Source: Methanoculleus sp. 7T
GTDB taxonomy: Archaea > Halobacteriota > Methanomicrobia > Methanomicrobiales > Methanoculleaceae
Direction: 5' to 3'
NCBI RefSeq assembly: GCF_023195915.1
Contig: NZ_JALPRP010000001.1
Coordinates: 1,054,001 to 1,118,000, forward strand
Length of the DNA: 64,000 bases
Part shown: piece after piece, positions 3,779 through 25,679 of the stretch
How the letters are laid out: every line of letters starts with the position of its first letter
Numbering within the stretch: position 1 is the stretch's first letter
Program-made: the position numbers and the translations under genes
Notes under the pieces: generated by a model
Told to the model about the DNA's origin: nothing
Database searches by the model: none
The model's input: only the letters and a program-made list of their open reading frames with translations

Positions 3779-5905
3779 GTGTACATCTCTTCCCTCCATG
3801 TCCGGAACTTCCGTTCCATCCGGGACGAAGCCCTCCCCTGCGACCGGCTGACCGCCCTCATCGGTGCAAACGGTGCCGGAAAATCATCTTTTTTACATGC
3901 CCTCGATCTCTTCTACCGGCCGGGAGCCCCCTATACCACAGAAGATTTCTATAATCAGGACGCATCCAAAGAGATCGTCATCGCCGTCACCTTTGCAGGC
4001 TTGAGCGACGAAGAGAAAGAACTCTTCAGGAAATATATTGAGGGCGACACCCTCACCGTGGAGAAAGTGATGGCATGGCCGGCTTCCCGCGGCAGCCAGA
4101 AATACCACGGAAGCCGACTTAAGAACCCGGATTTCGAGGCTTTCCGCAGCGCGAGTGGTGCCGTTGAACTCAGAAGAACCTACAACCAGTTGCGAGACGG
4201 CACCTATCCTGATCTCCCGCCATATTCAAACAAAGACGCCGCCGAAGCAGCCCTGCAGGAGCTGGAGGAAGCCCACCCTGAGCGATGTACCCGACAGAGA
4301 GACGAAGGGCAGTTCTTCGGGTTCAAGGAAGTCGGAGAAGCGCACCTCGAACGGTTCACTCGGTTCATATATGTCCCGCCGGTTCGTGAGGCCGCAAAGG
4401 ACGCCACCGACGGAAAGAACTCGGTCATGTCAGAACTGATGGACCTCGTCGTCAGGAAGGCCCTCATGAGCAGAGAAGACCTCCAGACACTGCAGAGGGA
4501 GGTGCAGGGGCGATACGATGAGATCTTCGATCCCGAGCATCTACCGGAACTGACGTCGCTTGGTGACCAACTCACCCGGACACTCGGGCAATATGCTCCG
4601 GGCACCAGTGTCTCGATAGACTGGTCGAGGGGGCAGGAGATCGCGATCCCGATGCCTGAGGGCAGGGTCAAGCTTATTGAAGACGACTACCCCGCGCCTG
4701 TCGAGGAGGCCATCCCAAAACGCCTCTGCCGGGAGGGGGACACCCCCTCCCGGTCCCTCCCCCGCGTGGCGATAGCCAATGGGAAGCCGTTTCAGCAATT
4801 TGATACAGGAAAGCGTTCAATTTGTTATGAGCGCTCGTAATTGCATTCTGAACCCAGTGAATCTTCAACCATGTGGCACTTTTGGGACGACTTCGAGAAT
4901 ACCGGCCATGGATTACAGCGCGCATTTATCATCACGCTCCTGCAGCACCTGGCTCTGGTACAGGCTGGAGCCGATGAAGAAACACCCGCCGCTACTCCTG
5001 AAAGGGGACAAAATATTATTCTCGGCATTGAAGAACCGGAACTCTATCAGCACCCGAACCGGCAGCGACACCTCTCGTCGATCCTGGAGCAACTCTGCTC
5101 AGGAGGGATTGGAGCGACCAGCTCGGTTCAGGTAATCTACACAACCCACTCACCGTTGTTCGTCGACATCGGCCACTTTGAGCGGATAAAAATTGTGCGA
5201 AAGGTTCAGATGTCTCCCGATCAGCCTAAGGAGACCATAATAACATCGACGACTCCCGAAGCGGTCCAGAGTGCCCTGAACGAGGTTGATGGAGGGAAGA
5301 GGAATCCCCCTACAGCCCGTTCCCTTGAGTCCAAGCTTAGAACTGTCATGACACCCATGGTCAACGAGGGCTTTTTCTCAGACGTTGTTGTTCTAGTCGA
5401 AGGAGAGGAGGACCGAGCTGCCCTGGTTGGCGTCGCAAGGGCGATGAAAGTTAATCTGAATTCTTGCGGCATTTCGGTCATTCCCTGCAATGGAAAAGAT
5501 TCCCTCCCAAAAGTGGGGACAGTATTCAAACATCTTGAGATACCCCTGTATGTCGTGTGGGACAGTGACAAGGACAAAAACGCTGCAACAAGTATTACGA
5601 CTAACCACAAGTTGCTCAGGTTATGTGGCCAGCCCGAGGATGACTGGCCAGAGGGGGTATTTGATCAGTATGCCTGCTTTGGAAACAACCTCACCGAAAC
5701 TCTTCGTCGTGATCTGGGAGAGGAATTCTACGATAGGACCCTTGCTGAAATCCAGCACGAATTTGGCTTGGATAGTCGGAACAACGCCAGGAAAAACCCA
5801 TTGGTTGTCGCTGAACTGATTAGCAAAGCAAAGGAGAACAGCATCACGTCCTCTATTATCGAGGAGACTGTTAATCGGATTGTGGTCCTCAGGGACTCAG
5901 GTTGA
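3779..5905 (+). pseudogene. OLD-family ATP-dependent endonuclease, interrupted by an in-frame insertion
   Basis: The two open frames 3779-4840 and 4841-5905 are the halves of one OLD (overcoming lysogenisation defect) protein, an AAA-like ATPase plus TOPRIM nuclease. Part one (GTG start) has Walker A GANGAGKS and VRNFRSIRDE. Part two has the signature-like GHGLQRAF, Walker B ILGIEEPELYQHP, the H-loop YTTHSP and the TOPRIM residues VLVEGEEDRAAL and VWDSDKDK. A 192-base insertion just before GHGLQR keeps the frame but brings one TAA at 4838-4840. All other catalytic motifs survive, so the break looks recent. OLD proteins commonly act in phage defence. Without the insert the protein would be about 645 residues. 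Confidence 0.8.
4706..4892. mobile_element. MITE-like insertion in the OLD gene
   Basis: About 187 bases flanked by the direct repeat TCGAG (4701-4705 and 4893-4897), the likely target duplication. The ends carry imperfect inverted repeats sharing TCCCAAAA (left 4712-4720, right read inward from 4889). Inside is a perfect 11-bp stem with a 3-base loop, CCGGGAGGGGG/CCCCCTCCCGG, near 4730-4754. No transposase is encoded. Insert plus duplication is 192 bases, exactly 64 codons. The boundaries are read from protein continuity (PVE before, NTGHGLQR after) and could shift by a few bases. Confidence 0.6.
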
Positions 5906-10600: not shown

Positions 10601-10661
10601 TTCTGTAAAATTGAATTGGCCCTGGATCCAACCTAGATTTGGACAAAGGAGAAACAGGGCC

Positions 10662-11821
10662 ATGGATCCCTTAGCGTTAATCGAAGATTATCTTTCCGAT
10701 CAGGAGAACGGCATGAAGACGCTCATCACCTGGTTCCTCAACCAGGTGATGCTCGCAGAGGCCCTCCAGCAGGCAGGAGCCGCCCAGTACGAACGCACCG
10801 ATGCGCGGAAAGCGCATCGAAACGGTTACAAGGACCGATCCCTCAAGACCCGATACGGGGAGACGATCCTCCGGAAACCGCAGTTTCGGGAGTTCCCGTT
10901 CGAGACACAGGTCTTTGGACGGTATGCCCGGGTGGAGAAGGCTCTGGTGAATGCAATCGTCGAATCCTACCTCTAGGGACGTTAGTCGAGAAAATCTCCG
11001 ATTTTCGCTGCGTCTCAACGAGGAGAGTCCAGGAGATCGTCAGTCATCTGGGGATCGATCAGCTCTCTCCGGCTTCGGTCTCCCGGATGGCCAAGGACCT
11101 CGACGATCAGGTGCAGGCATTCCTCCTGCGGCCGATCGAACAGGCTATCTCGTATCTCTTCGTGGATGCTTCCTACTACAAAATCCGGGACGGAGCACGG
11201 TACGTCACCAAGGCGGTCCTGGTGGTCGCCGGAGTGCGCGAGGATGGTTACCGGGAGATCTTGGGCGCGAGAGTCACCGACTGTGAGAATGAAGAATTCT
11301 GGTCGGGACTCTTCGAGGACCTCAAAGAACGAGGACTTGCCGGGGTTCAACTGGTCATCTCGGATGGGCATACCGGCATCCAGAAGGCGGCTGAAGCCGC
11401 CTTCCTCGGTGCATCCTGGCAGATGTGTCAGGTTCATTGTACCCGAGCCGTCTTGAGGAATATTCCTCGGAAACACCAGAAAGAGGTTGTAGAAGGCCTG
11501 AAGGAGGCCTATGGAAGTGAACAAAGGCTTCAAGATCTCGCCGATGACCTGAATGCCAGGGGGTACCGGAAAGCAGCCAATACCATCGAACGGTTCCTCC
11601 CGGGGTTGATGAGTTACACGGCATTCCCAAAACAGCACGGGAAACGGATCCGAACCACAAACCTGATGGAACGGGTCAATAAGGAGCTAAAACGAAGGAC
11701 CAAGGTCGTAGGAGCGTTCCCGAACGAGGAATCCCTTCTCCGGCTGGTCGGATCCATCCTGATGGACATCAACGAGGAGTGGGTCACCGGCAGAAGGTAT
11801 TTGACCATGGAGAAGGAATGA
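10662..11821 (+). pseudogene. IS256-family transposase, broken by a hairpin insertion
   Basis: ATG 10662 starts MDPLALIEDYLSDQ and runs to ALVNAIVESYL, then TAG at 10974. The rest continues in another frame from 11012 as VSTRRVQEIVSHLGIDQLSP to 11821. The catalytic DDE parts are present: YLFVDASYYKIRDG, QLVISDGHTGI and the NTIERFLPG helix, with RTTNLMERVNKELKRRTKV near the end, all typical of IS256 (Mutator-like) enzymes. The 38-base join carries a hairpin absent from the family. A full product would be about 385 residues; as written it is inactive unless frameshifted. Confidence 0.8.
10974..11011. repeat. short hairpin insertion (element E)
   Basis: A single stem GAAAATC/GATTTTC with a TCC loop (about 10989-11006) in a 38-base segment that replaces about two codons of the transposase. 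The core AAATCTCCRATTT is shared with the first hairpin of element C read on the other strand, which links the two insertions. Confidence 0.5.
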
Positions 11822-12120: not shown

Positions 12121-13455
12121 ATGATCCCCAGCGATTTATTTCGATCAAACATTAGTTATCTGGAGGCGAAAATCCCGAAACCATATCGTGAGATCTGTTT
12201 TTGGGTTTTGATTGCGTTGCTCATCAGGTTACTCTTTTTGCCTTTCGCATGCCATGCCGATCTTTTAAGCACATATTATCGCTCAAATCTCCTGATGACC
12301 GGAGAAATATCGATATTCTTTGGACTTAACGAGTTATCGGTATATTTTCAGGCTTTAACCCTTTTTATTTTTCAAGCATGGATTCCAAGAATCATTTGGT
12401 CTCCGGATTGGGGTTCACCGATAGGGTTTGGAACGGCTAGTGTGGTTGATTGGATGGAATTTGTCTCATTTGAGACTGTATTCCAATACATTACGATATT
12501 CAAGATGCCTTACCTGATCTTCGATTTGCTTTGCGTGGTATTACTGTATTACATCTTTCACGAAAATGAAGAGAGTAGGGTTATCGCCTTGTCTGCCTGG
12601 GTCGCTTGTCCGGTGCTGATATATGCGGCCTATATTTTCTCTCGATATGAAACAATTGCATTCTTTTTCATTCTGCTGAGTTTATTTTGCGTAAAGATTA
12701 GAAAAAATCGATTCGCCGTTTTTGCGTTAGGTACTGCAGTACTTATCCGGATGTACCCGCTCATGCTCCTTCCGTTCTATGTAGTAATACTTGAAGAAGA
12801 TCTGCATGAACGAATAAAATTAGCAACCATAGGTGTAATCCCGCTTATTATCTCATATATAAGTAAAAGAATAACTATTCAACCGATTTTCGTCTCATCG
12901 ACTGTGTTTGATCCTGTAAATAGTTTCAGTCGCCATTTGTTGGAGTTACGTATCGGAGATATCTCTCTATTTCTCATATCTTACCTTCTGATATTGGGTA
13001 TTTCGGTGTATTATATACGCCATAACCGAAAAGAAACAGGCGAATTTGAAGCGCTGGTATCATTTGGTTTACTATTGCTCATATCGATGTACCTCTTCGC
13101 ACCATACATGGCGATAAAAACGTCATGGTTTTCATGGATTCTTCCATTTTTAATAGTCTGGGTTGCATTGGATCGAACGGAAGATGGAAGAAAAGCTTAT
13201 TTACTGTTAATCGCCTCCTGGATCATATTAATGTTAATTAGGATCGATCCAAGTCAATTTGGTGGAGGGTTGTTTGCCCCGGCAAATTTCGCATTGATCG
13301 ATCTGCCAAACTTTGGGAACGTAATATCCTCAATAACAGGATACCCTGCATCAATACTCAAGACACTAGTTGTAACACTGTTCTCCGCGGCCCTTATCTG
13401 GACCATGTCAATTGTAACCTTAAGGTTATTTAAAAAATGGAGCGGGCCAGAATGA
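12121..13455 (+). CDS. GT-C type polyprenyl-phosphate glycosyltransferase, putative
   Basis: A 444-residue protein with about ten membrane helices. The first luminal loop after helix one holds HADLLSTYYRSNLLMTGE, and SRYETIAFFFILLSLF plus VLIRMYPLMLLPFYV follow, the pattern of GT87/PIG-M-like mannosyltransferases in which a Q/R-x-E/D-x-I/L motif precedes a helix. Such enzymes move a sugar from a polyprenyl-phosphate carrier on the outer face of the membrane. Its stop overlaps the start of the next gene (ATGA), so the two form a unit. Codon use is AT-rich, unlike the core, which points to transfer. The sugar is unknown. Confidence 0.65.
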   Translation: MIPSDLFRSNISYLEAKIPKPYREICFWVLIALLIRLLFLPFACHADLLSTYYRSNLLMTGEISIFFGLNELSVYFQALTLFIFQAWIPRIIWSPDWGSPIGFGTASVVDWMEFVSFETVFQYITIFKMPYLIFDLLCVVLLYYIFHENEESRVIALSAWVACPVLIYAAYIFSRYETIAFFFILLSLFCVKIRKNRFAVFALGTAVLIRMYPLMLLPFYVVILEEDLHERIKLATIGVIPLIISYISKRITIQPIFVSSTVFDPVNSFSRHLLELRIGDISLFLISYLLILGISVYYIRHNRKETGEFEALVSFGLLLLISMYLFAPYMAIKTSWFSWILPFLIVWVALDRTEDGRKAYLLLIASWIILMLIRIDPSQFGGGLFAPANFALIDLPNFGNVISSITGYPASILKTLVVTLFSAALIWTMSIVTLRLFKKWSGPE

Positions 13456-14114
13456 CAAACAAATTGATGTCTCACCAACTGCTTCTCCTAATAGCTATGC
13501 TTTGTGGAATGGTGCTGGTACCTATGGTCTATTCGTGGGGAACGAATATTATCGTATCAGATGGAGGGATCATCCGCAACGAAGACACTGTTGGAGGACT
13601 CTACGGATCAACTACGTCCGGGCAATCATTTTCCGCAGCATATGACAATTTATATAGAATCGATATCCGTTTTGCAACCTATGCACGAGAGAATACCAAC
13701 ACTATAGATGTCTCTATCTTAGAGAAACAAAATACTACAGTTGTACGTCATATAACAATAGATGCACGTAATCTGAAAGATTGCGATCTTCATCCAATAG
13801 AGTTCGATCCAATCCCAACTTCACGAGGAAAAGAATACTTGATATCGTTAAAATCAATCGATGCATCTCCCACCAATACCATAACCATATGGTATAGTGG
13901 CAATGATGCCTATGCTGAGGGGACGAGATACCATAACGGGGAGCCTGCCGAAGGCGATCTTTGCTTTGTCCCGTACTACCAACTGAGCATCGTTGAAGCA
14001 ATAGCATATTTTATGCAAAAAATCACCTGCCATTGGCTTTTCTTCACATTCTATGCAATAGTAGCTTTTGCCACTCTCTATGGAGTAATCGTGCTAAGAG
14101 AGACGTTGAAATGA
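13452..14114 (+). CDS. membrane protein with an exported beta-sandwich domain
   Basis: 220 residues from ATG 13452 (ATGA overlap with the GT-C gene; an upstream in-frame ATG at 13437 is less likely). An N-terminal hydrophobic helix (QLLLLIAMLCGMVLVPMV) and a C-terminal one (LFFTFYAIVAFATLYGVIVL) bracket an exported domain of about 150 residues. That domain contains DPIPTSRGKEYLISLKS and ITIWYSGND, the same pattern as residues 480-585 of the large glycosyltransferase encoded at 14285, so it is probably a shared carbohydrate-binding fold. A role as partner of the GT-C transferase is inferred from the tight coupling. Confidence 0.6.
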   Translation: MTNKLMSHQLLLLIAMLCGMVLVPMVYSWGTNIIVSDGGIIRNEDTVGGLYGSTTSGQSFSAAYDNLYRIDIRFATYARENTNTIDVSILEKQNTTVVRHITIDARNLKDCDLHPIEFDPIPTSRGKEYLISLKSIDASPTNTITIWYSGNDAYAEGTRYHNGEPAEGDLCFVPYYQLSIVEAIAYFMQKITCHWLFFTFYAIVAFATLYGVIVLRETLK

Positions 14115-14284: not shown

Positions 14285-17200
14285 TCAATTTGAATGAACA
14301 TCATTACGGACGACACTATATGGAGTGTAAACATTCATATTCCCTCTCTCGATTGCCATTTCACAGAGATAACGTACGATTTCAAAATTGGAGTCGCCTC
14401 CCGGCAGTTCTCCAAGAGATAGCATGAGATCTTTGGATAGAGCAACACAATCCGGGGAAGGATACTTGCAGCTGCGTACAATGCTTAGCATACTTGGATT
14501 GAACCAGAACGAAGAATAAAGATCATTTGCCATCGGCAATTTGCCTTTCCCGGTAGAAGGCCATCGTTCGAATCCGGCATGTACAATTCCTCCAAATCGA
14601 TTGACTGTCTTGCCACCCACAACGCCGACACCATTGCATAAAGCATGTTCGATAAGAGATAGATACCAATCGGAACAGTTAACCATAACATGACCCCCCA
14701 TAAAAATGAGAACTGTGCCTTTTACAGGAGTATTTTGCCCCTCGATTATTGAGGAAACTGAAGTAATTCTCCGATCAACACAATGTACAAATTTGGCACC
14801 TTTTGAGAGATGTCTTTTAAGAGCACTGCATGTCTGATCATCCGGACAGAGCGCTACGATATCGTATTCCCTCCCAACAGTATACTGCTGTATTTTATTA
14901 ATGCATTTAACAGCTTGCTGCAGGTCCTTCACAAGGATAAAAATTGAAAATGTCGCATCGCCTGAATTGTATCTTAACCGATAACTCCCTTTCCAACTTC
15001 CGAATTCAACCCTATCAACAGCAATACCCCGCCTCTTCATCGCATCGGCGATTGCCGACCGTGCCGCTTCGTAAGCATACGGTTTCGCCGAATCGGAAGA
15101 CGCGGCAGAGGTTTGAATCATCCTCCAATGATACAAAATTTTAGGGATATGGCATATCTCCTGGTCTTCAAGTAACTCTGTTACTCTCAAGAACAAGTCA
15201 TAGTCCTGTGAACCATCGTAATCGCTTCTAAAGCCCCCAACGGATTGAATAATTGAAGAATCAATGACAGTAAAATGTACCAGATAGTTGCAGGACAGAA
15301 ACGTAATTGGAGACCAATCCGGTTTAAAAAAGGGATTAACACGTCGTCCGCTTGAATCCAATTTATCCTCATCGGAGTATAATAATCTGAGATCAGGATT
15401 TCGGTTTAGAGCCTTGACTATTTCATAAATCGCAGACGAAGCTATCTCATCATCGTGATCGAGTAATCCAACGTATTCACCGGTTGCAAGTGATAGTGCC
15501 TCGTTTGAGTTGCCAGAAATACCCTTATTTTCCTCCAGGAACTTTACCTTAATTCTTGGATCCCCATGGGCATACTCTTCGAGGATAGATCTGACATGTG
15601 GCTTCTCCGAACCTCCGTCAGCAATACAGAGTTCCCAGTTGTCATAGATCTGTTCAAGAACCGACTCAATGGCACGCCGCAACCACCTCTCATCAGTATT
15701 CCATACCGGCATTACGATACTGATCTTCGGTCGATACGAAAATTTTGTGCATTCTTCCCGCATCTGCTCCAGTTGGGCCCCCGAAGGCTCGTTCTGCAGG
15801 ATCCAGAGTTCATATGGGTCCCGGATTACCTCCTTCGTAAAACACTGAAACCCAATCCGACCGTTGATCCCCTTCCCATCTCTGAAAAGCTGTAATTTCT
15901 CATGAGGTGCAGTCGGATTATACCAGACCGCAGCCGACGGAGATCCGGTCGATGCAATCTGGAAATAATACGTTTTTCCCTTGCTGTCAGGGATAGGTTT
16001 GAATCCCCACCTACTATACCCATTGTTTACGATCCTGCTCCCCTTGAGCATCACATCTCTGATTACCGGTCCCTCAAGGGAACCTTCCCTGATAGATAAC
16101 CGCAGGTTCGCATTTAGCCTACCATATGTCCAGGTAAAAACTTCAATGGCATTTAATTGATTTATTGGCGAAATAAATCGCCCATCTAATGAGATATCCA
16201 GTGCCAGTGGTACATTCCCATCATATATCTCGACAGGCACTCTCAATATCGGTCGGATAGCGCTTATCGGCATTAATGAAAATCTACCTCGCAGCCTGCT
16301 CTTCCCCCGCATCCAGAGACTTCCAGGACCCTCGTGCACAAGAATTTGCAATGAGAGGAGCCCCAGATCGTAGAAATGTCTCCGGCGCGTCCCAAGAGGC
16401 ATTAGTCGTTCAACAAGTGCATGGAACTTTGTGACCATAATCCAGGTAGTGCTGTTCTGGATTGCGGACAGAGTAGACGAAAGTTGAACGATCTCTTCAT
16501 CTTTTCTCTTTAGGTCTTCGGATAGCGGGTCAACCATCTCCTCTAGTCTCTCAATTTGTATGTTCTTTTCTTGGACCGAAGATTTGAGGCGGGCCAACTC
16601 AGCCTCATTTGATCGGGACTTCGCGCGGAGATCTTCGATGACACCCTCAAGATCACCGATATGCGCATCTTTTGCCTGAACCAGAGACCTGAGATGGGCC
16701 AACTCAGTTTCACCCGATTGATATTTCGAACGAAGATCCGCAATAATTCCTTCAAGGTTGGTGATATGGGTCTCCTTTCTCTGATTTATCCCATCAAGAG
16801 CCTTAAAAACCAGAGAGAGGAGTTCTTGATGCTTGTAAGGATCAGAGGGAGTTTCGGCCAGGATTGTGTTTATCCCGGGGACAGTTCCTTCCTTTCCAAT
16901 CAGATAAAGAGTCCGGTACGTTGGTTCCTGAAAGTCTCCCAGTTCAACAAAGTTTTCGTTGTAATAACGATATACAGCATTGACCTCATCCTCAGGGATC
17001 CCATAGAGGTACGCAGAAAAGATAAATTGTTGCAGGATGAGCCAGTGATGAAGGTTATTGGAGTTAACGAACGTGAATTCATACCCGTTTTCCTGCAGGA
17101 ATGTTTCAAATTCTAATTTTGAAGGCAGACCGTTCCTGATATGCTCCTCAAGCCAGGGATGGGGTCTCCCCGCAGAAGCAGCAAAGAAATCATTTGCTCT

Positions 17201-17590
17201 TTCTTCTGCATCCTTTGCATATTCGGAATAAAAGGGAGCTCCCAGCACTACAAAATTTTTACTCAGCCTGAGCATCTCTAGTACTGCAGTGTTCCGATCT
17301 GTTGGCGGGATGTGTTCAAATACATCCGAACTGACGACTACATCGAACGATCCAGCCTGAAAAGGGGGCGCAAAAATATTCCCATGAACATAATTGTCCT
17401 CTTCGGGAGAGGGAGGCAATACATCCAGAACAAGTACATTATCCTCTGGAAGGAAGTCACTTAATAGTCCACTTTTGCCTCCCACATCTAAAATGTTCAA
17501 AGACTCTCTGTCTCGTATTGCTGCAACAAATTCGGAGATGATAACGTTGCGCGTATAAAGGTCAAAAGGAAGGTCCCGTATATCTTTCAT
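14285..17590 (-). CDS. multidomain methyltransferase-glycosyltransferase
   Basis: 1101 residues. Domains: a SAM methyltransferase (1-235; NILDVGGKSGLLSDFLP loop, SSDVFEHIPP); a coiled coil of about 33-residue repeats (270-375; NLEGIIADLRSK, DLEGVIEDLRAK, RLEEMVDPL); the STTW segment typical of surface glycosyltransferases; a beta-sandwich (450-590; KPIPDSKGKTYYFQI, AVWYN); a GT2 domain (620-850; ISIVMPVWNTDERWL, LLDHDDE, YSDEDKLD, GSQDYDLF); and a second, weaker GT2-like domain (878-1101). The parts suggest it extends a surface polysaccharide and caps it by methylation, with the coil acting as a length ruler as in WbdA/WbdD. It lies downstream of Wzt on the same strand. The order of action is inferred. 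Confidence 0.8.
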   Translation of the reverse strand: MKDIRDLPFDLYTRNVIISEFVAAIRDRESLNILDVGGKSGLLSDFLPEDNVLVLDVLPPSPEEDNYVHGNIFAPPFQAGSFDVVVSSDVFEHIPPTDRNTAVLEMLRLSKNFVVLGAPFYSEYAKDAEERANDFFAASAGRPHPWLEEHIRNGLPSKLEFETFLQENGYEFTFVNSNNLHHWLILQQFIFSAYLYGIPEDEVNAVYRYYNENFVELGDFQEPTYRTLYLIGKEGTVPGINTILAETPSDPYKHQELLSLVFKALDGINQRKETHITNLEGIIADLRSKYQSGETELAHLRSLVQAKDAHIGDLEGVIEDLRAKSRSNEAELARLKSSVQEKNIQIERLEEMVDPLSEDLKRKDEEIVQLSSTLSAIQNSTTWIMVTKFHALVERLMPLGTRRRHFYDLGLLSLQILVHEGPGSLWMRGKSRLRGRFSLMPISAIRPILRVPVEIYDGNVPLALDISLDGRFISPINQLNAIEVFTWTYGRLNANLRLSIREGSLEGPVIRDVMLKGSRIVNNGYSRWGFKPIPDSKGKTYYFQIASTGSPSAAVWYNPTAPHEKLQLFRDGKGINGRIGFQCFTKEVIRDPYELWILQNEPSGAQLEQMREECTKFSYRPKISIVMPVWNTDERWLRRAIESVLEQIYDNWELCIADGGSEKPHVRSILEEYAHGDPRIKVKFLEENKGISGNSNEALSLATGEYVGLLDHDDEIASSAIYEIVKALNRNPDLRLLYSDEDKLDSSGRRVNPFFKPDWSPITFLSCNYLVHFTVIDSSIIQSVGGFRSDYDGSQDYDLFLRVTELLEDQEICHIPKILYHWRMIQTSAASSDSAKPYAYEAARSAIADAMKRRGIAVDRVEFGSWKGSYRLRYNSGDATFSIFILVKDLQQAVKCINKIQQYTVGREYDIVALCPDDQTCSALKRHLSKGAKFVHCVDRRITSVSSIIEGQNTPVKGTVLIFMGGHVMVNCSDWYLSLIEHALCNGVGVVGGKTVNRFGGIVHAGFERWPSTGKGKLPMANDLYSSFWFNPSMLSIVRSCKYPSPDCVALSKDLMLSLGELPGGDSNFEIVRYLCEMAIERGNMNVYTPYSVVRNDVHSN

Positions 17591-17662: not shown

Positions 17663-18415
17663 TCATCCCGTAGTAGCCGAAGGCTCAAGATAATCATGAA
17701 TAACGTTATCCGTCGCGCCGAGTGATATCGCTTTCCCGCCCTGTAACAGCATACACCGCTCGCACAGCTCCTGCACCGTCCCGAGGGCGTGCGAAACGAT
17801 GATGATCGTCTTCCCCTCGCGCCGGATCTCCTCGATCTTCGCGCTGCACTTGCGCTGGAAGGCCTCGTCACCGACGGCAAGCACCTCGTCGACTAGGAGG
17901 ATGTCGGGGTCGGTCTGGACCGCTGTAGCAAACGCAAGCCGGACCGCCATCCCCGACGAGAAGTTCTTGAGCTTCATGTTCTCGAAGCGCCGCAACTCGG
18001 AAAAGTCGAGGATCTCATCGTAGCGCTTCTCAATCTCCTTCCGGGTCAGGCCCATGATCGAGCCGTAGAGGTAGATGTTCTCCTTGGCCGTGAGGTCTGG
18101 CTGGAACCCGACCCCGAGCTCGAGGAAGGGGGCGATCTTGCCGTTCACCCGGACCGTCCCCGAGTCGGGGTAGAGCACCCCGGCGAGGATCTTTAAGAGC
18201 GTGCTCTTACCGCTCCCGTTCGGCCCGATGACCCCGAAGGTCTCCCCGCGCCGGACGGTGAAGGAGACGTCATCCAGGGCCTGGAACTGCTCGTAGGAGT
18301 ACTTCCCGCCCTTGAGGAGCCCGATGATATGCTCGTACACGGTGACCTTGCGGTCGTGGGGGATCCGGAACTCCTTGGAGAGGTGGTCGACCACGATCGC
18401 TTCTTCACTCTTCAT
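17663..18415 (-). CDS. polysaccharide ABC exporter, ATP-binding protein (Wzt-like)
   Basis: 250 residues: Walker [12 protein letters not shown], the polysaccharide-exporter Q-loop region [20 protein letters not shown], signature LKNFSSGM, Walker [19 protein letters not shown] and H-loop IIIVSHALG. The [15 protein letters not shown] lead is typical of the Wzt/TagH group. It lacks the C-terminal glycan-binding domain of O9a-type Wzt. ATG 18415 overlaps the permease stop by one base, so the pair is translationally coupled. It energises export of the rhamnose-containing polymer made by this locus. Confidence 0.9.
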
Positions 18416-19176
18416 TAGATCTCCTCCGCAAACCGGCGCTCAAGCCGACCGAAGACTAGGGCCCCTGCAACGACCATCGCGACCCCCACCCCGAGGAGGG
18501 CAAGAAGGCCCGCTAGAGATGGCGTCACCCCGTAGAGCAGGAACTCCCGGTAGGTCTCGATGAGCACGGTCATCGGGTTGAGCATGTAGTACTTGAGGAA
18601 CGCTTCCGGGATGATGCCGACCGGGTAGACGATCGGGGACAGGAAGAACCCGGCTTGGAGGACCACGTCCCAGACCTGATTTAAGTCCCGGAAGTAGACG
18701 AAGAGGGAGGCGAGGACCAAGGACGCGCCGTAGACGATCAGGAAGTAGATACCATGCACTACCGGGAAGAGGAGGATGTTTGGCGTCACCACCGCACCCA
18801 GGATGAAGAGCAGCGGGATCAGCACTGCAAACTCGAGTATGGAACTGATGAAACTCGAGAGTACAGAACTCATCACGAGGATCTGGCGCGGGATGTAGAG
18901 TTTGGTCACGAGACCCGGCCTGCCGACGATCGAGCCCATCGCTGTCATGGTCCCGTTGGCAAGGAACCGCCAGGCGATGATCCCTATCAAGAGGTAGAGC
19001 GCAAAGTTCTCCTGCTCAAACCGAAAGACGTTCATGAAGACGACGTAGAGAACCAGCATCATCAGGAGCGGGTTCAAGAGCGACCAAGCAAACCCGAGCA
19101 CCGAACTCTGGTACTTAACCTTCAGGTCGCTGATCGTAAGGTTCCAGATGAGATCTCTGTAATCAACAAGCCACAT
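18415..19176 (-). CDS. polysaccharide ABC exporter, permease (Wzm-like)
   Basis: 253 residues from ATG 19176, starting MWLVDYRDLIWNLTISDLKV. Six membrane helices and the conserved QSSVLGFAWSLLNPLLMM and FFLSPIVYPVGIIPE segments place it in the ABC-2 polyol/polysaccharide permease family. The frame stays open to 19296, but the extra residues run through the end of the upstream glycosyltransferase and do not fit the family, so 19176 is chosen; the two genes overlap by 14 bases. It forms the channel with the Wzt-like ATPase. Confidence 0.88.
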   Translation of the reverse strand: MWLVDYRDLIWNLTISDLKVKYQSSVLGFAWSLLNPLLMMLVLYVVFMNVFRFEQENFALYLLIGIIAWRFLANGTMTAMGSIVGRPGLVTKLYIPRQILVMSSVLSSFISSILEFAVLIPLLFILGAVVTPNILLFPVVHGIYFLIVYGASLVLASLFVYFRDLNQVWDVVLQAGFFLSPIVYPVGIIPEAFLKYYMLNPMTVLIETYREFLLYGVTPSLAGLLALLGVGVAMVVAGALVFGRLERRFAEEI

Positions 19177-20119
19177 GTGGGGGTCTCCCGATGTTACTCC
19201 ATGTCTGTGTGAATCGCTTGATATCGCTCTCCGGCACCCTCCGCCGGATCGTAGAACGCTTGCGGAGCATCCGGGGAATGCCTCGCACAGCATCAATCTT
19301 TGACCTAACGATGGCCCTTCCCCGCCCCTTCACCGTGTAGTAGGGGACGACGGCGAGGTTTCGCCCCAGTATCCAGGGGATCGAGGTGACGAGCAGCCGG
19401 GACGGGAAGTTCTTCACGACATACCAGACGACATTCCGATTCACGCAGTAGACGGTGAGGTCGGTCCCGACGCCTGCCGTCCCGCCGTGGTGGTGGTAGA
19501 CCTCCGCCTCCGGGACATACCGGCACGTCCACCCGGCAAGCCGTGCCCGGAATGCCAGGTCGACGTCCTCCATATAGAGGAAGAAGTCCTCGTCGAAGAG
19601 CCCGATCTCATTGAGCATCTCCCGCCGGTAGAGGGCAGCGCCGGCACAGGGACCGAAGACCTCCTCCGGATGGTCGTACTGCCCGCGGTCCGGCTCGTAC
19701 ATCCCCCGATCCCAGGCAGCGCCGCTCCGCGAGATGCAGATCCCAGTGGAGTTGATTGTGCCGTCCACAAAGAGCATCTTTGCGGCGCACATCCCCGTGC
19801 CAGGGTCGGCGTCCATAGTACTCTTGAGGTGCTCCATGAAGCAAGGTTCGGCCCGTGTGTCGTTGTTCAGGGTGAGGATGTACTCCCCCAGGGCGGCACG
19901 GATACCGGCGTTCGTCCCCCCGGCGAACCCCAGGTTTTTCCGGTTCCGGACGATCCTGACCGCCGGATAATGCTCCTCGACAAACTCTGCGCTCCCATCG
20001 GTTGAGGCGTTATCGACCACGATCGTCTCGAAGTCCCGATAGGTCTGCACTGCTAGAGAGGAGAGGCAGGTTGGCAGGTAGCGCCGGCCGTTATAGTTTG
20101 TGATGACGACGCTGATCAT
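19163..20119 (-). CDS. GT2 glycosyltransferase, rhamnosyltransferase-like
   Basis: 318 residues with SVVITNYNGRRYLPTCLSSL at the N-terminus, VVDNASTDGSAEF, NRKNLGFAGGTNAGI, the DxD-like LTLNNDTRAEP and the acceptor-side EDVDLAFRARLAGW. This is the WbbL-like group that commonly transfers rhamnose from dTDP-L-rhamnose. It sits between rfbA and the exporter, so it most likely uses the sugar made by the adjacent pathway. The specificity is inferred. The basic C-terminus (RMLRKRSTIRRRVPESD) probably rests on the membrane. Confidence 0.82.
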   Translation of the reverse strand: MISVVITNYNGRRYLPTCLSSLAVQTYRDFETIVVDNASTDGSAEFVEEHYPAVRIVRNRKNLGFAGGTNAGIRAALGEYILTLNNDTRAEPCFMEHLKSTMDADPGTGMCAAKMLFVDGTINSTGICISRSGAAWDRGMYEPDRGQYDHPEEVFGPCAGAALYRREMLNEIGLFDEDFFLYMEDVDLAFRARLAGWTCRYVPEAEVYHHHGGTAGVGTDLTVYCVNRNVVWYVVKNFPSRLLVTSIPWILGRNLAVVPYYTVKGRGRAIVRSKIDAVRGIPRMLRKRSTIRRRVPESDIKRFTQTWSNIGRPPHVAC

Positions 20120-20142: not shown

Positions 20143-20877
20143 TTACCGCCGGGCGACAGACTCCACCTGCTTCTTCCGGTGCTGCTGGACCATCATGCCT
20201 GCCCGTATCAGGCTGTCGAACGTCCCGGCATCGCTCCAGAAACCCGAGAGGACGCCGTACTCCATCTCGCCCTTCCGGACGTAGACGTTGTTCACGTCGG
20301 TGATCTCGAGTTCGCCGCGGCCGGAAGGCTTGAGGGTGCGGATGATCTTGAAGACCCGGGCGTCGTAGAGATACAGGCCCGTGACGGCAAGGTTCGACTT
20401 CGGCGCCTGCGGCTTTTCTTCGATCGAGAGGATCCGGCTGCCGTTGACTTCGGCCACCCCGAACCGCTGTGGATCCGGAACTTCCTTCAAGAAGACCTTC
20501 GCACCCCCGTCGAACGACTCGACGTCGTTCCGGAAGTCGTCCTCGAAGATGTTATCGCCGAGGATGACGGCAAGGTTATCGGTCCCGGCCCACTTCCGGG
20601 CGAGACCGAGTGCTTGGGCGATCCCCCCGGCCCCCTCCTGGATCTCGTAGGCGATGCTGACGCCGAAATCCGACCCCGAACCGAGCAGCTCAAGGAAGTG
20701 TCCCACATGGCCGCGGCCGGAGACGATCATGATCTCCTCGATACCGGCGTTGATCAACTTCTCCAGGGGATAGCAGATCATCGGTTTATCGTATACGGGC
20801 AACAGGTGCTTGTTCGTCACCTTCGTCAGCGGGTACAGGCGGGACCCGGTACCCCCGGCTAGAATTACGCCTTTCAA
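20143..20877 (-). CDS. rfbA: glucose-1-phosphate thymidylyltransferase
   Basis: 244 residues. The nucleotidyltransferase signature GVILAGGTGSRLYPLT is followed by NKHLLPVYDKPMICYPLE, AVILGDNIFEDD and VSIAYEIQEGAGGIAQAL. It makes dTDP-glucose from dTTP and glucose-1-phosphate, the first step to dTDP-L-rhamnose. It is shorter than the enterobacterial RmlA (about 290), lacking the C-terminal extension, as in many archaea and in RffH-like short forms. It overlaps rfbD by four bases and ends the rfbCBDA run. Confidence 0.92.
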   Translation of the reverse strand: MKGVILAGGTGSRLYPLTKVTNKHLLPVYDKPMICYPLEKLINAGIEEIMIVSGRGHVGHFLELLGSGSDFGVSIAYEIQEGAGGIAQALGLARKWAGTDNLAVILGDNIFEDDFRNDVESFDGGAKVFLKEVPDPQRFGVAEVNGSRILSIEEKPQAPKSNLAVTGLYLYDARVFKIIRTLKPSGRGELEITDVNNVYVRKGEMEYGVLSGFWSDAGTFDSLIRAGMMVQQHRKKQVESVARR

Positions 20878-21704
20878 TCGGATTCACCTTTCACATTCAG
20901 ATAATCAGCAAGCGCACCGCTCCAGTGCCGGAGGGGGGCTGTCTTGGTGTTCAACAGTACCGAATATGCCGGGCGCTTGGCCTTCCGCGGGAACTCTGCG
21001 CTCGAGCAGGGGGCCACGTTCTCGATGATCGCACGGGCAAACTCATACCACGAGCAGACACCGTCGTTTGTGACATGGTAGATCCCCGGCTCAAGACTGA
21101 CAATCTCCGGCGTCTTCCGGGCGAGGTCGACCGTATACGTCGGTTTCCCGACTTGGTCGTTCACCACCCGGACCTGGTCCATCTGCCCGGAGAGGTGGAG
21201 CATAGTCTCGACGAAGTTCCTCCCGTGCGCCCCAAAGAGCCAGGACGTGCGGATGATCCGGTAGTCGTCCGTATTTTCCGCAATATTTTGCTCCCCGAGG
21301 AGTTTGGAAGCCCCGTAGATGTTGATGGGGTTCGGTACGTCGGATTCAACATACTCCTTCTTTGAGCCGTCAAAGATGTAGTCAGTGCTGTAGTGGACGA
21401 GCGTGGCCCCGACGTCGGAGCAGGCAGACGCGATATGCCCGAGCGCCTCCCCGTTGACGGCGAACGCCAGATCCCGGTTATCCTCGCACCCGTCGACGTC
21501 GGTATAGGCCGCGGCGTTGACGACCAGGTCGGGAGAGAGGTCGCGGATGCACGCAGAAACTGCCCGCTCGTCGGTGATATCCAGTTCATGGCCGCGGAGG
21601 ACCGCTCCGGGAAAGACCGCCTGCAGGTCGTGACCAAGCATCCCATATGCGCCGAGGATGAGGACCTTCCGGGGGTTTACTGCTTTAATGGCCGCCACCA
21701 CCAC
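20874..21704 (-). CDS. rfbD: dTDP-4-dehydrorhamnose reductase
   Basis: 276 residues with KVLILGAYGMLGHDL for NADPH binding, the catalytic YxxxK of the SDR fold in NIYGASKLLGE, and VVNAAAYTDVDGCED typical of RmlD. It reduces dTDP-4-dehydro-L-rhamnose to dTDP-L-rhamnose. The start is a GTG within a run of GTG codons (21704, 21701, 21698) overlapping the end of rfbB; which is used cannot be decided by eye. Its stop overlaps rfbA. Confidence 0.92.
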   Translation of the reverse strand: MVVAAIKAVNPRKVLILGAYGMLGHDLQAVFPGAVLRGHELDITDERAVSACIRDLSPDLVVNAAAYTDVDGCEDNRDLAFAVNGEALGHIASACSDVGATLVHYSTDYIFDGSKKEYVESDVPNPINIYGASKLLGEQNIAENTDDYRIIRTSWLFGAHGRNFVETMLHLSGQMDQVRVVNDQVGKPTYTVDLARKTPEIVSLEPGIYHVTNDGVCSWYEFARAIIENVAPCSSAEFPRKAKRPAYSVLLNTKTAPLRHWSGALADYLNVKGESD

Positions 21705-22651
21705 GTATTCTCAACATACCATTCGACAGTCGCCTGTAAGGCGGTTCCGAAATCGAACTCCGGCTTCCAGCCCATCGTCCGGAGCTTCGAGGAGTCCAGC
21801 GAGTAACGCCAGTCGTGCCCGGGGCGGTCGCGCACGTACTCGATCATCGACTCATCCTTTCCAAGGGCCCCGAGGATCCCTTCGGTGATCTCGAGGTTAC
21901 TCTTCTCGTTGTCGCCGCCGATGTTGTAGATCTCGCCCGGCTCCCCGTGACGGAGGACGAAATCGATCGCCCGGCAGTGGTCAAGTACGTAGATCCAGTC
22001 ACGGACGTTTTTGCCGGTGCCGTAGACAGGGACCTTCTTCCCGTCCAGGAGGTTGGTGGTAAAGAGCGGGATGAGTTTCTCGGGGTACTGGTAGGGTCCG
22101 AAGTTGTTCGTGCAGCGGGTGACGACGACGGGGAGATCGTGGGTGATATAGTATGACCGTGCAAGAAGGTCGGAGGCCGCCTTGCTCGCCGAGTAGGGGC
22201 TCGAAGGGTTCAGGTTGTCCGTCTCCCGGAAGGACCCGGACCGGATGCTCCCGTAGACCTCATCAGTCGAGACGTGGACGAACCGCTCAACACCGTGGCT
22301 CAGCGCCCCCTCAAGCAACACGTGAGTTCCGAGGACGTTTGTCCTGACAAAGACGGAGGCGTCGTGTATCGACCGATCAACGTGGCTTTCCGCCGCGAAG
22401 TGGACGACGGCGTCGATCCGGTGTTCCCGGAAGACGGAACCGACAACATCCGGGTCACAGATGTCGCCCCTGATGAACGTATACCGCGGGTCTCCGGCAA
22501 GATCCTTCAGGTTTTCCGGATTTCCCGCATACGTAACTTTATCCAGGTTTACAATGGAGTCGTCGGGATGCTCCTCAAGCATCTGCCTGATGAAGTTGCT
22601 CCCGATGAACCCAAGCCCGCCCGTAACAAGGAGTCGCACACTATCACCCAT
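21677..22651 (-). CDS. rfbB: dTDP-glucose 4,6-dehydratase
   Basis: 324 residues: NAD-binding VTGGLGFIGSNFIRQML, the active-site HVSTDEVYGS, YSASKAASDLLARSY with the catalytic Tyr-Lys pair, and TRCTNNFGPYQYPEKLIPLF. It converts dTDP-glucose to dTDP-4-dehydro-6-deoxyglucose. The start overlaps the end of rfbC by eight bases, consistent with one operon. The C-terminus is ENTWWWRPLKQ. Confidence 0.94.
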   Translation of the reverse strand: MGDSVRLLVTGGLGFIGSNFIRQMLEEHPDDSIVNLDKVTYAGNPENLKDLAGDPRYTFIRGDICDPDVVGSVFREHRIDAVVHFAAESHVDRSIHDASVFVRTNVLGTHVLLEGALSHGVERFVHVSTDEVYGSIRSGSFRETDNLNPSSPYSASKAASDLLARSYYITHDLPVVVTRCTNNFGPYQYPEKLIPLFTTNLLDGKKVPVYGTGKNVRDWIYVLDHCRAIDFVLRHGEPGEIYNIGGDNEKSNLEITEGILGALGKDESMIEYVRDRPGHDWRYSLDSSKLRTMGWKPEFDFGTALQATVEWYVENTWWWRPLKQ

Positions 22652-23120
22652 GTTTCAGCCCGGGAGCAAGGCCCCAGTCGTAGGGGATCTCACTCGTATC
22701 AGGTGGAAGCCGGAATTCGTCCGGGTCTTCGTAGTTGTATGGCAGGGTTGGGACGCTCACGAAGAACGCGGTCTCGGTGCCGATGCCCTTGAACCCGTGA
22801 TAGACGCCGGGGGGAACGCTGATGAGGATTGGGTTCTTCTCCCCGACGAAGAACTCCATGAGGTTTCCCCGGGTGGGCGAGTCCTCCCGTGCATCGTAGA
22901 GCGCGACCTTCATCATGCCATGGACACAGGTGAAGTTATCGGTCTGCTTTTTATGGTAGTGCCAAGCTTTCACAACCCCGGGATACGCCGTCGTGCAGTA
23001 GACCTGCCCGAACTTCTCGAAAATGGCGTCGTCACACCGGAGGATCTCCATGAGCCACCCGCGCTCATCCGGAATGAGACGTAAGTTTTTAATAGCCACC
23101 CCGTCGATGGTCGCATTCAT
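22644..23120 (-). CDS. rfbC: dTDP-4-dehydrorhamnose 3,5-epimerase family protein
   Basis: 158 residues of the RmlC cupin fold: PDERGWLMEILRCDD, TTAYPGVVKAWHYHKKQTDN with the catalytic His region, KVALYDAREDSPT and PPGVYHGFKGIG. It is the first gene of the rfbCBDA run. It is shorter than the classic RmlC (about 180) and of the type found in archaeal and sugar-epimerase clusters. A TATA box lies 27 bases upstream of the ATG. Confidence 0.85.
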   Translation of the reverse strand: MNATIDGVAIKNLRLIPDERGWLMEILRCDDAIFEKFGQVYCTTAYPGVVKAWHYHKKQTDNFTCVHGMMKVALYDAREDSPTRGNLMEFFVGEKNPILISVPPGVYHGFKGIGTETAFFVSVPTLPYNYEDPDEFRLPPDTSEIPYDWGLAPGLKHG

Positions 23121-23301: not shown

Positions 23302-24243
23302 TTAAAGTAATTTCATCTCGCCCGAAATACCCAAAAGCCCGTCCCTTAAACCGGAAAGGTAAAACCGTATCTTCCTCAACTCACCTCTCCGGAACAACAG
23401 GTAACAGTAATAAGGGAGTCGGATCAGGAACTCCGTCAGCAGGACGTAGAGATATCTGGAAAATGTGAAATGCTCTTTTGCGACCAGAACCCAGTTGCGG
23501 GCAACATAGTAAAGATACGGTGCGCTGAGAGACCCTAGTGTTGCCGAAACCTTATGTTGCACTTGAGCGGCAGGAACGACGAGCAGGCTGCACCCCACCT
23601 CTTTTGCTCTGATGCACCAGTCGGTCTCTTCGTGCATGAGAAATAGAGATTCGTCAAACAGACCGATATCCCCGAATACAGAGGCTCTGAAGAGCAGGGC
23701 GCACCCGACGAGCCCGAACGGAGGTTTCTCGGTCTGTTTGGGGAGACTCGAACCGTTCTTCAGGTATAACCTCGGATATCCAAGATACATCTCCGTCCCG
23801 GCAGACCAAACGACATCAGGCTTCTCCGAATACATCACCAGTGGCTGGCAGACAGCACAATCACGGTGAGTCTCTAGTTCACGAACGAGAGTTGTCAACG
23901 CATCGGGTTCGACAAAGATGTCGTTGTTCAGCAAGAAAATGTATTCTGGCTCCCGTTCCATTGCGCGGAGGATGCCGGCGTTATTCCCGCCTGCGTATCC
24001 CAGGTTCCGCCCGGTCTCTAGTATCTCGATACCGGGAAACTGGACCCGAATTGCATCGATAATCTCATGATCCGTGCTGTTTTCCACCAAGAGCACCCTG
24101 AAGTTATCATACTCCATCGCCAGCACGGAGCGGATCGTCTCTACGGTGTCGCGAAGGTTATTGTAGTTGAGGATAATGACGTAGACCAGAGGAGATCGGT
24201 CGTTTACGTTGGGAATCATTGGGTCTGTCGCGGAATCGTACAT
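23302..24243 (-). CDS. GT2 family glycosyltransferase
   Basis: 313 residues with PLVYVIILNYNNLRDTVETI, LLVENSTDHE, GRNLGYAGGNNAGIL, the DxD-like LLNNDIFVEP and MHEETDWCIRAKEVGC. The C-terminal region is hydrophobic and basic (FLIRLPYYCYLLFRRGELRK), suggesting membrane association. Likely role: adding a sugar to the surface polysaccharide; the donor is unknown. A second start at the internal ATG (MIPNVNDRS) is possible. It lies between the GT4 gene and the rfb operon on the same strand. Confidence 0.8.
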   Translation of the reverse strand: MYDSATDPMIPNVNDRSPLVYVIILNYNNLRDTVETIRSVLAMEYDNFRVLLVENSTDHEIIDAIRVQFPGIEILETGRNLGYAGGNNAGILRAMEREPEYIFLLNNDIFVEPDALTTLVRELETHRDCAVCQPLVMYSEKPDVVWSAGTEMYLGYPRLYLKNGSSLPKQTEKPPFGLVGCALLFRASVFGDIGLFDESLFLMHEETDWCIRAKEVGCSLLVVPAAQVQHKVSATLGSLSAPYLYYVARNWVLVAKEHFTFSRYLYVLLTEFLIRLPYYCYLLFRRGELRKIRFYLSGLRDGLLGISGEMKLL

Positions 24244-24284: not shown

Positions 24285-25409
24285 TCATAACAAATTACTA
24301 TAGTATTTCTCGACCTGCACCGTGACCTTATCCCAATCAAAAGCTCTCGTAGTCCCGGTTATCAGATCTCGATTTTCCGGCCCTTTGTTCAGCCAAAGGA
24401 GGATCCCCTCCCCCATCTCCCCAGCCGAGAGTTCACAACAGAACCCATTCACCCCCTCCACCACCAGGTCCCCAGCCGCGTTCCCGGGGTGGTCGGTCGT
24501 CACCACCGGAATCCCGCAGGCCATCGCTTCCAGCGCCGCGATCCCGAAGCCCTCGCGGGTCGAGGGGAGGACGAAGACCCTCGACGCCTTCATAGCGGCG
24601 ATGACCGAGTCGTAGTCGGGGAGGAAGCCGGTGAAGGCGACCGCCCCGGCAAGCCCGAGGTCGCGGGCGAGGGCTTCGAGCGCCGGCCGCTCGGGGCCGT
24701 CCCCGACGATCAGGGCCCGGAGGTCGGGGACCCCCTCACGGACCTGCACGAGCGCCCGGAGGAGCACGTCGACGTTTTTTTCCCGGATCAGCCGGCCGGC
24801 GAAGATGACGTCCGAACCCTCCCTCGCCGGGGCGACGGCGGCGATCCGCGCGAGATCGATCCCGTTCGGGATCACCGGGACAGGCCCCGGAACCCCGAGG
24901 CCCGCAAGCGCCCGGGCAGTCGAGGGCGAGACTGCGACGGGATGCTCGGTAAGCCCGGCTGCCAGCCGCTCGACGGCCTTCCCGAAGACCCCCCGCCGCC
25001 CGAGGTAGTCGTACCAGTAGTCGCCCCAGACCTCGTGCCAGGTGACCGTGAGCGGGACCCCCCGCAACGCCGAGGCGGCCTTTGCAGAAAAACACGAGAA
25101 GTAGGGGAAGTTCTGGCAGTCGACGACGTCGGCGCCGGAGGCAAGGAGCGGCCTGAGCACCGAAGAGCCGAACCTGAGCGCCTGCGGGACCGTCCGACGG
25201 CCATCTGCGTAGAGAGCCTCCCCCGGACAGACTCCGTGGAGCGTCACCCCGTCCCGCTCGATCGTCGCCGGGCCGTCCCAGGAGCGCATCCCGTAGACGT
25301 GGACCTCGTGCCCCCGGTCCGCAAGCCTGACCGAGACCTCGTGGATGCGCTTCTCGACCCCGCCCTTCACCCAGGGGTAGACGGCGTCGTAGACGTAGGC
25401 GATCTTCAG
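24285..25409 (-). CDS. GT4 family glycosyltransferase, apparent CTG start
   Basis: 374 residues of the GT-B fold: KIAYVYDAVYPWVKGGVEKR, the middle VIPNGIDLARI, DVIFAGRLIREKNVDVLLRA, and the donor-site PSTREGFGIAALEAMACGIP with its E-x7-E motif. The frame is open to 25568, but upstream residues are unlike any GT4 protein. The protein proper begins LKIAYVYD with codon CTG at 25409, eight bases after the strong ribosome site GGAGG, and no ATG, GTG or TTG is close. A CTG start is therefore inferred. Role: a step of surface glycan assembly, using a nucleotide sugar. Confidence 0.82.
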   Translation of the reverse strand: MKIAYVYDAVYPWVKGGVEKRIHEVSVRLADRGHEVHVYGMRSWDGPATIERDGVTLHGVCPGEALYADGRRTVPQALRFGSSVLRPLLASGADVVDCQNFPYFSCFSAKAASALRGVPLTVTWHEVWGDYWYDYLGRRGVFGKAVERLAAGLTEHPVAVSPSTARALAGLGVPGPVPVIPNGIDLARIAAVAPAREGSDVIFAGRLIREKNVDVLLRALVQVREGVPDLRALIVGDGPERPALEALARDLGLAGAVAFTGFLPDYDSVIAAMKASRVFVLPSTREGFGIAALEAMACGIPVVTTDHPGNAAGDLVVEGVNGFCCELSAGEMGEGILLWLNKGPENRDLITGTTRAFDWDKVTVQVEKYYSNLL

Positions 25410-25679
25410 GGGGTGCCCTCCTGGGGATAAGGTTGCGGGAGGAGCAGAATAAACATATTCGTTTGAAGGCGGGATAGAGCAGAGACGCGGTTCGGGGCCA
25501 CAAGAACAGCAAGACCTGCGCAAAAAAACCTGTAACGTCAACCGAAATGCCGTCAAGCCACACCCCACGCGGCCCCCTCCCCAGCCTCCACAGCGAAAGC
25601 CTCAACTTCCGATTGCACGAATCCCGCCCCCAGTCGTACCCCTTAATTACCGGCCGCCCCCTAGATCATCATAAGACCT

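Follow-up and report, generated by a model that had tools for sequence, protein, structure and literature searches.

Introduction

Single proteins that both build and cap a surface polysaccharide are described from bacteria. WsaE, which acts on the S-layer glycan of Geobacillus stearothermophilus, is trifunctional, with a cap methyltransferase and two rhamnosyltransferase domains, and the available text of PMC2943079 names wzm, wzt and wsaE as overlapping genes in a cluster that also contains rml genes. In Klebsiella, O7 ORF6 and O12 WbbB are one-chain machines whose coil is named a molecular ruler; a polysaccharide with the O7 backbone, together with homologues of ORF6 and ORF7, is reported from Methanoculleus marisnigri JR1 (Kelly et al. 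2024, PMC11231755, in the part of the article available). The design of one chain with terminator and polymerase is new neither to science nor to archaea. Here we describe a fusion protein encoded beside a Wzm/Wzt exporter in Methanoculleus sp. 7T, within a stretch of 64,000 nucleotides (contig NZ_JALPRP010000001.1, positions 1,054,001 to 1,118,000; hereafter the window). The genome gives two mcrA-type matches and is that of a methanogenic archaeon. We think it fairly probable that the protein is a methyl-capping machine in which terminator, ruler and polymerase-like parts share one chain, and there are signs that related species exchange its gene behind the same exporter. The locus carries a well-studied bacterial scheme for set-length surface polysaccharides into methanogens; its interest lies mainly in the swap behind one exporter and in a natural series of coil lengths, not in the one-chain design.

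Domain organisation of the fusion protein

The fusion protein (1101 amino acids; 14285..17590, minus strand) was delimited from the list of open reading frames (ORFs), Pfam and an AlphaFold2 model (monomer prediction; mean predicted local distance difference test score (pLDDT) 75.3, predicted template modelling score (pTM) 0.56). The first-pass annotation, made from the sequence, had placed it at the same coordinates and divided it into five parts, a methyltransferase, a coil, a beta-sandwich and two glycosyltransferase (GT) domains; all five were recovered by Pfam, repeat analysis, the model and motifs. A sixth element, a conserved hinge of ~65 amino acids, had been overlooked. The order along the chain is methyltransferase, coil, hinge, beta-sandwich, GT-A and degenerate GT-A. 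Among the best 25 of 32 matches in an NCBIfam scan, the fusion gave only GT2, coil and methyltransferase families, far under their cut-offs.

The N-terminal domain (residues 1–235; 16886..17590, minus) is assigned to the class I S-adenosylmethionine (SAM)-dependent methyltransferases by Pfam (Methyltransf_11, E 6e-7), by the model and by a family alignment of bacterial and archaeal wzt-linked methyltransferases. It is modelled as a Rossmann-type fold of alternating strands and helices (pLDDT blocks 64–94) and is 49–59% identical to the corresponding domain of four full-length orthologues, which are described below. The glycine-rich SAM loop, ILD(V/I/L)GG, is found in 5/5 full-length members, that of the window included, so that the proposed methyltransferase does carry a SAM loop. 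Its profile matched 34 sequences of solved structures at E ≤ 1, mainly general SAM methyltransferases (best 6uak, 2.6e-5). Based on fold and loop, this domain would be the terminating enzyme, with a predicted activity. No kinase domain was found in the fusion by Pfam or in the model, and the coil starts ~20 residues past the methyltransferase. Because no kinase domain was found, the direct O-methyl terminators, WsaE and the methyltransferase-only WbdD of O8, are a closer model than the O9a WbdD with which the protein had initially been compared.

The coiled coil (residues ~253–379; 16454..16834, minus), identified by repeat analysis and the model, consists of predicted long helices with heptad repeats, modelled at low confidence; the coil that had been proposed is therefore predicted, though with another repeat length. 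A period of 33 residues, as first suggested, scores negative, and 35 fits: a unit of 35 residues (five heptads) recurs in about three copies at residues 272–376, 30/91 pairs are identical, and 0/2000 heptad-preserving shuffles match the period-35 score. At the DNA level, the first and second copy share 65% identity. The coils of the five full-length members differ in length, with 127, 130, 140, 182 and 210 residues, and those of two congeners have 101–114. Eleven coils were measured for periodicity (that of genome G030 was left out); in six, the repeat period lies above all 300 shuffles, and the periods (35, 14, 35, 28, 28 and 28) are all multiples of 7. A stand-alone archaeal methyltransferase–coil protein of 455 amino acids, with about four 35-residue repeats by eye, is encoded at locus L112 (5818–7182, minus) and resembles a separate WbdD-type terminator.

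The hinge (residues ~377–445; 16256..16462, minus), with the pattern S-x-T-W...LLP..TRRR..YDLGL...EG, was defined by alignment and has no Pfam family above cut-off; a match to AbiEii in 1/12 members, below the cut-off, was ignored. Its profile matches 12/232 genomes of the order, and a Wzm/Wzt pair is present in the fetched stretch for ten of the 12. Concerning the other two, G089 (L149) gave no Wzm/Wzt match within 17 kb, and the contig of G112 (L151), at 3.6 kb, is too short to judge. At L147 (6364–11087, plus) and L148 (2170–6881, minus), two consecutive genes after Wzt each match the hinge, one of them weakly; they are possibly a split form of the coil-hinge chassis discussed below.

Glycosyltransferase domains

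The first GT domain (residues 593–876; 14963..15814, minus) is a GT2/GT-A domain by Pfam, motifs and structure match. Its motifs DHDD, SDED, QDYD and HWR are intact, and it is 61–70% identical to that of the four full-length orthologues, with motifs intact. Among solved structures, the model comes closest to the chondroitin polymerase K4CP over this domain (Z 27.5, root-mean-square deviation (rmsd) 3.4, 258 residues aligned) and to heparosan synthase 2 (PmHS2) across both GT domains (Z 24.8, 415 aligned, rmsd 22.9). In a quick tree of 80 rows, for which only Shimodaira–Hasegawa-like approximate likelihood ratio (SH-aLRT) support was computed and 28/77 inner branches are open, this domain falls into a starred set of eight rows from loci of the same phylum; the first GT of the congener G019 falls elsewhere, and we read no direction of transfer from the tree.

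The second GT domain (residues 880–1101; 14288..14953, minus) is GT-A-like by motifs and identity, and degenerate. At its lost DxD site (G-G-H, residues 965–967; 14690..14698, minus) it reads FMGGH where 60/68 relatives keep the motif aspartate. It is 24–29% identical to the four full-length orthologues, whereas these are 50–91% identical to one another in this region; Pfam gives two GT2 stretches in each of them and no separate one for the window's second domain; and ~60 C-terminal residues of the orthologues are absent from it. The model has pLDDT blocks of 67–94 here, except for residues 1010–1030 (~40) and the last residues. A frameshift was considered for the missing tail and rejected, as inspection by eye of all three minus-strand frames further downstream showed no tail. 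The DxD aspartate of the second GT is missing in 9/69 rows, the window included, and D711 or D714 of the first GT in 13/69; both domains have lost theirs in 0/69. Of the eight closest loci, five (L104, L106, L107, L097 and L098) keep the aspartate of the second GT; the three without it are L105, L035 and the window.

Judged by its motifs, the second GT domain is probably inactive. The two polymerase-like transferases of the first-pass annotation are thus both present as GT-A domains, but the second lacks DxD. Since only one of the two looks active, it is doubtful that the single chain makes up a complete polymerase, and polymerization may require further GT2 genes from the cluster. The earlier idea of a chain-length and capping machine in one archaeal protein stands as far as a terminator-type methyltransferase, a coil and polymerase-type transferases do share one chain beside an exporter of the O-antigen type. 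A pair of C-terminal GT modules that both carry catalytic motifs is not found, and because the second lacks DxD, the fusion would work like a terminator-ruler-polymerase protein as a variant, not as a plain member of that kind.

The exporter and the gene cluster

In transcription order the cluster comprises GT4, GT2, rmlC, rmlB, rmlD, rmlA, GT2, Wzm, Wzt and the fusion. The exporter adjoins the fusion gene, as had been noted before; it consists of a Wzt-type ABC ATPase of 250 amino acids (17663..18415, minus) and a Wzm-type ABC-2 permease, whose start codon is unsure (18415..19296, minus). The scan of the window's Wzt gave ABC_tran and other ATPase-type matches and no Wzt_C domain, the C-terminal carbohydrate-binding part that Wzt has in the cap-dependent export of O9a and O12; by contrast, the Wzt proteins of L105, L038 and L110 carry Wzt_C. 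Because the window's Wzt is without this cap-reading domain, capping is probably not used here as an export licence, as it is in E. coli O9a, and the quality-control logic of O9a does not apply.

Next to the exporter lie a stand-alone GT2 glycosyltransferase (19163..20119, minus), a likely partner of the fusion with similar proteins in related clusters, and the dTDP-L-rhamnose genes rmlA, rmlD, rmlB and rmlC (20143..23120, minus), which were named from their translations and matched in neighbouring clusters. A GT2 (23302..24243, minus) and a GT4 (24285..25568, minus) belong to the same operon, and AglB of an archaeosortase system adjoins the cluster at 25680–28139. The GC content is 39–49% over the fusion gene and the pair of ORFs that lie past it, against ~59–63% for most of the remaining cluster; one block around 23–24 kb has 51%.

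Signs of a gene swap behind a shared exporter in congeners

Three other genomes among 35 of the genus (G019, G011 and G030) contain the window's Wzt at 88–89% identity. The four of 35 with this Wzt (88–100%) also match the hinge, and no other genome of the genus does. The window is 87–88% identical in DNA to each of the three from rmlC through nearly all of wzt; the identity ends at 17736..17747, where 73–84 bp of wzt remain. What follows is a gene for a methyltransferase-coil-hinge-GT2-GT2 protein of 1008–1010 amino acids with both DxD motifs intact in G019, a radical-SAM-coil-hinge-GT2-GT4 protein in G011 and a methyltransferase-coil-hinge-WbsX-GT4-GT2 protein in G030. This pattern hints that the fusion gene is exchanged between related species while the exporter stays the same. 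Such an exchange could leave the rml-wzm-wzt block in place because the exporter has no cap-reading domain; the exporter of Klebsiella O1/O2, without a carbohydrate-binding module (CBM), needs no cap and can carry another polymer. G011 and G019 are 85–89% identical in DNA over the coil and the start of the hinge, and their ends are unlike; a 28-residue coil repeat is present by eye in about three copies in G011 and two in G019. As part of the wider proposal that follows, the shared DNA would suggest recombination within the coil, with the ruler length changing by whole repeats.

We tentatively extend this to a wider proposal, in which coil and hinge would be a standard chassis in the genus, and species that differ in caps and polymerases would trade the gene that lies behind a non-selective, cap-blind exporter. 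The fronts would be methyltransferase or radical-SAM domains, the backs dual GT2, GT2 with GT4, or WbsX with GT4 and GT2, and the hinge would be a docking module for the exporter. If true, this would be an archaeal counterpart of O-serotype switching. No literature on swapping of such fusion genes in archaea was found among open-licence papers.

A further gene of the cluster also differs: the 51%-GC GT2 of the window (23302–24243) stands where G019 and G030 have a GT4-like frame of 370 amino acids, a possible second swap. At L124 (8486–13633, minus) the fusion that follows this exporter starts with a radical-SAM domain (Pfam 6.6e-13) instead of the methyltransferase, a candidate for an unusual chemistry of capping. 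In G019, the gene that comes after the fusion matches a solved ribofuranosyl transferase (7shg, E 2e-17), as expected of an O7-like cluster.

Distribution of orthologues and relatives

Matches at E ≤ 1e-30 are found in 12/392 genomes of the phylum, the window's own included. The whole domain order is present at four loci in four other archaeal genomes of the phylum (L104, L105, L106 and L107), with coils of 130–210 residues. In L104 and L105 the gene directly follows an intact Wzm-Wzt pair, with rml-like genes near; in L107 Wzt is broken into short frames ~2 kb away; all three have Wzt sequence on the contig. The contig of L106 ends within the tail of the gene, and its 6.3 kb contain no exporter. 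L097 and L098 are cut by contig ends, and L035 (Methanosarcina) has no methyltransferase. Of 52 loci, 29 have matches to both Wzm and Wzt in the flank that was fetched, several contigs being too short to judge.

The methyltransferase subfamily of the fusion follows wzm-wzt also in L038, L039 and L064. In the bacterial L038 (Nitrospinota), Wzm-Wzt is directly followed by methyltransferase-coil-GT2-GT2; this methyltransferase is not called by Pfam at E 1e-3 and was identified by BLAST and alignment. L064 (Paenibacillus) has Wzm, Wzt, a methyltransferase gene and a dual-GT gene as separate neighbours, with an rmlB match. In L046 an upstream ORF, at which the contig starts, matches part of Wzt only and precedes methyltransferase-coil-GT2-GT2. 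Plasmid homologues near full length were also sought: 45 records matched, none with 80% of the query in one place.

Beta-sandwich and neighbouring genes

The beta-sandwich (residues 446–592; 15815..16255, minus), assigned from the model and structure comparison, has a jelly-roll-like fold with weak to middling matches to CBMs. Six strands are seen at residues 468–548 in the full model, and the fold was recovered when modelled alone, at pLDDT 62. With this model, the closest CBM is 7tok (Z 8.5, rmsd 2.8, 106 aligned; other CBMs 6–7.7) and the best Foldseek E is 2.1e-3; a phage baseplate chain gives a VIA Z of 11.2, and unrelated rows reach the same Z as the CBMs. By sequence, the profile matched no solved structure at E ≤ 5. 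As a general rule, the idea that the sandwich replaces the absent Wzt_C was rejected: L105 carries the two together, and the three congeners seem to lack the one as well as the other, with no match to the sandwich and Wzt frames of 250–258 amino acids, judged by length.

Two membrane-protein ORFs lie in the low-GC stretch (12121..14114, plus), and the second, the convergent neighbour at 13437–14114, carries the sandwich of the fusion (BLASTP 2e-6, single comparison). Membrane proteins beside related loci also carry it: a multi-pass membrane protein followed by a membrane-anchored beta-sandwich occurs in the window (12121–14114, plus), in L112 (981–2132) and in L036 (15024–17165), and in L104 (11093–13645) a YfhO-like membrane protein of 851 amino acids with a fusion-type sandwich directly follows the fusion gene. 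These proteins may represent an extracytoplasmic glycosyltransferase that works on the same polymer as the fusion.

Further out in the window, a Mutator-family transposase in two frames of 121 and 244 amino acids (10611–11821, plus), apparently broken, is placed between an orc1/cdc6-type gene and the low-GC stretch; over 125 bp it shares 85% identity with DNA that lies downstream of the G019 cluster. At 3779–5905 (plus), frames of 353 and 354 amino acids follow each other directly in one reading frame, separated by a single stop; from its translation this looks like an interrupted OLD-type ATPase-nuclease.

Proposed mechanism and alternative explanations

In the capping mechanism that we favour, the first GT2 domain and the stand-alone GT2 enzymes of the operon would add rhamnose-type residues from dTDP-rhamnose to a lipid-linked chain at the membrane, and the hinge would keep this chain-building end near the membrane and the exporter. 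The degenerate second GT may be a structural or acceptor-binding partner, that is, a pseudo-enzyme. A coil rises by ~1.5 Å per residue, which over 105–127 residues gives 155–190 Å. At that distance the methyltransferase would O-methylate the non-reducing end once the chain reaches it, and growth would stop; the exporter, having no cap-reading domain, would export whatever chain the fusion makes. The gene order rml-GT2-wzm-wzt-fusion, as in Geobacillus, supports this mechanism, which predicts a terminal O-methyl sugar on a rhamnose polymer at the archaeal surface.

Several points weigh against it. The most serious doubts come from the lack of Wzt_C, from in vitro methylation by WsaE that does not depend on length, and from possible gene decay. 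In the bacterial loci L038 and L046 the coils are short, with 53 residues in the former and 41 in the latter, L039 (828 amino acids) has methyltransferase and GTs with no evident coil by eye, and five of the 11 coils (L104, L107, L036, L038 and L046) show no period above shuffles. The hinge is modelled with confidence as low as that of the coil, and the co-occurrence of sandwich and Wzt_C in L105 means that the sandwich is no simple cap-reader replacement. An internal sugar, or some other substrate, could be what the methyltransferase modifies. Given the degenerate second GT and the missing tail, either the gene may be in decay or its polymer may be a simple one. The analysis shows the architecture and motifs, the orthologues, the synteny, the swap point, the loss of DxD and the absence of Wzt_C; the substrate, the methyl cap, the ruler action and the membrane docking are inferred.

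Some of these points would fit a polymerase scaffold without a ruler, in which the balance of exporter and synthase sets the length, as in Klebsiella O2a, with a methyltransferase that does no more than decorate the end of the chain. The short Wzt, 250 amino acids with no Wzt_C, agrees with this, as does methylation by WsaE that is independent of length in vitro, according to the available text of PMC2943079; but a long coil of 127–210 residues is kept between terminator and GTs in 5/5 full-length members, and coil proteins mark ruler systems in Klebsiella in the part of PMC11231755 available, so we hold this alternative to be rather unlikely. Less likely still is a decaying or non-functional gene whose second transferase and tail are gone and whose product no longer completes the polymer: the lost DxD, the ~60 missing residues and the divergence of the second GT would all follow, yet the frame is open over 1101 codons, the methyltransferase and first GT keep their motifs and their identity to the orthologues, and the loss of the motif in exactly one GT is common among relatives, which points to a tolerated state. 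An O9a-like terminator whose cap is read by the exporter before export recalls the WbdD systems in general, and Wzt_C is present in L105 and L038; with a window Wzt that has no Wzt_C and a fusion in which no kinase domain was found, we regard it as very improbable.

For the favoured capping mechanism, the natural coil lengths (127–210 residues, plus 101–114 in two congeners) and the module swaps behind one exporter form a ready-made test series, which bears both on the coil as a measure of chain length and on a cap-blind exporter that allows polymer switching.

Comparison with known systems

Sequence and model together point to the kind of WbbB and O7 ORF6, with a predicted N-terminal terminator, a coil between terminator and polymerase, and Wzm/Wzt alongside. 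As far as the available text of PMC11231755 describes them, ORF6 of Klebsiella pneumoniae O7 shares the N-terminal methyltransferase, the coil, the two C-terminal GT2 modules and the Wzm/Wzt cluster, and the O7 polymer contains rhamnose, as proposed for the window. ORF6 has a kinase and an immunoglobulin-like CBM before the coil, whereas no kinase was found in the window's fusion and its sandwich follows the coil; a ribofuranosyltransferase next door, as in the O7-type cluster, is found in the congener G019, not in the window. WbbB of Raoultella terrigena and Klebsiella O12, in the same source, likewise polymerizes and terminates in one chain with a coil, but its terminator is a Kdo transferase and its GT modules belong to other named families.

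WbdD of E. coli O9a and O8 also has its methyltransferase at the far end of a coil; unlike the fusion it is separate from the polymerase, the O9a form having a kinase and the O8 form being methyltransferase-only (PMC3482155, available part). K4CP and heparosan synthase 2 share the two tandem GT-A domains, but these matches span residues ~592–1101 of the model, and methyltransferase, coil and sandwich have no counterpart there. WsaE, as described in the available part of its source, resembles the fusion in its N-terminal methyltransferase, its two GT domains in one chain and the gene order wzm-wzt-fusion with rml genes, a likeness at the level of described features. The differences are that both GT domains of WsaE are active, whereas the window's second lacks DxD, as judged by motif, and that the archaeal fusion has a beta-sandwich and a hinge.

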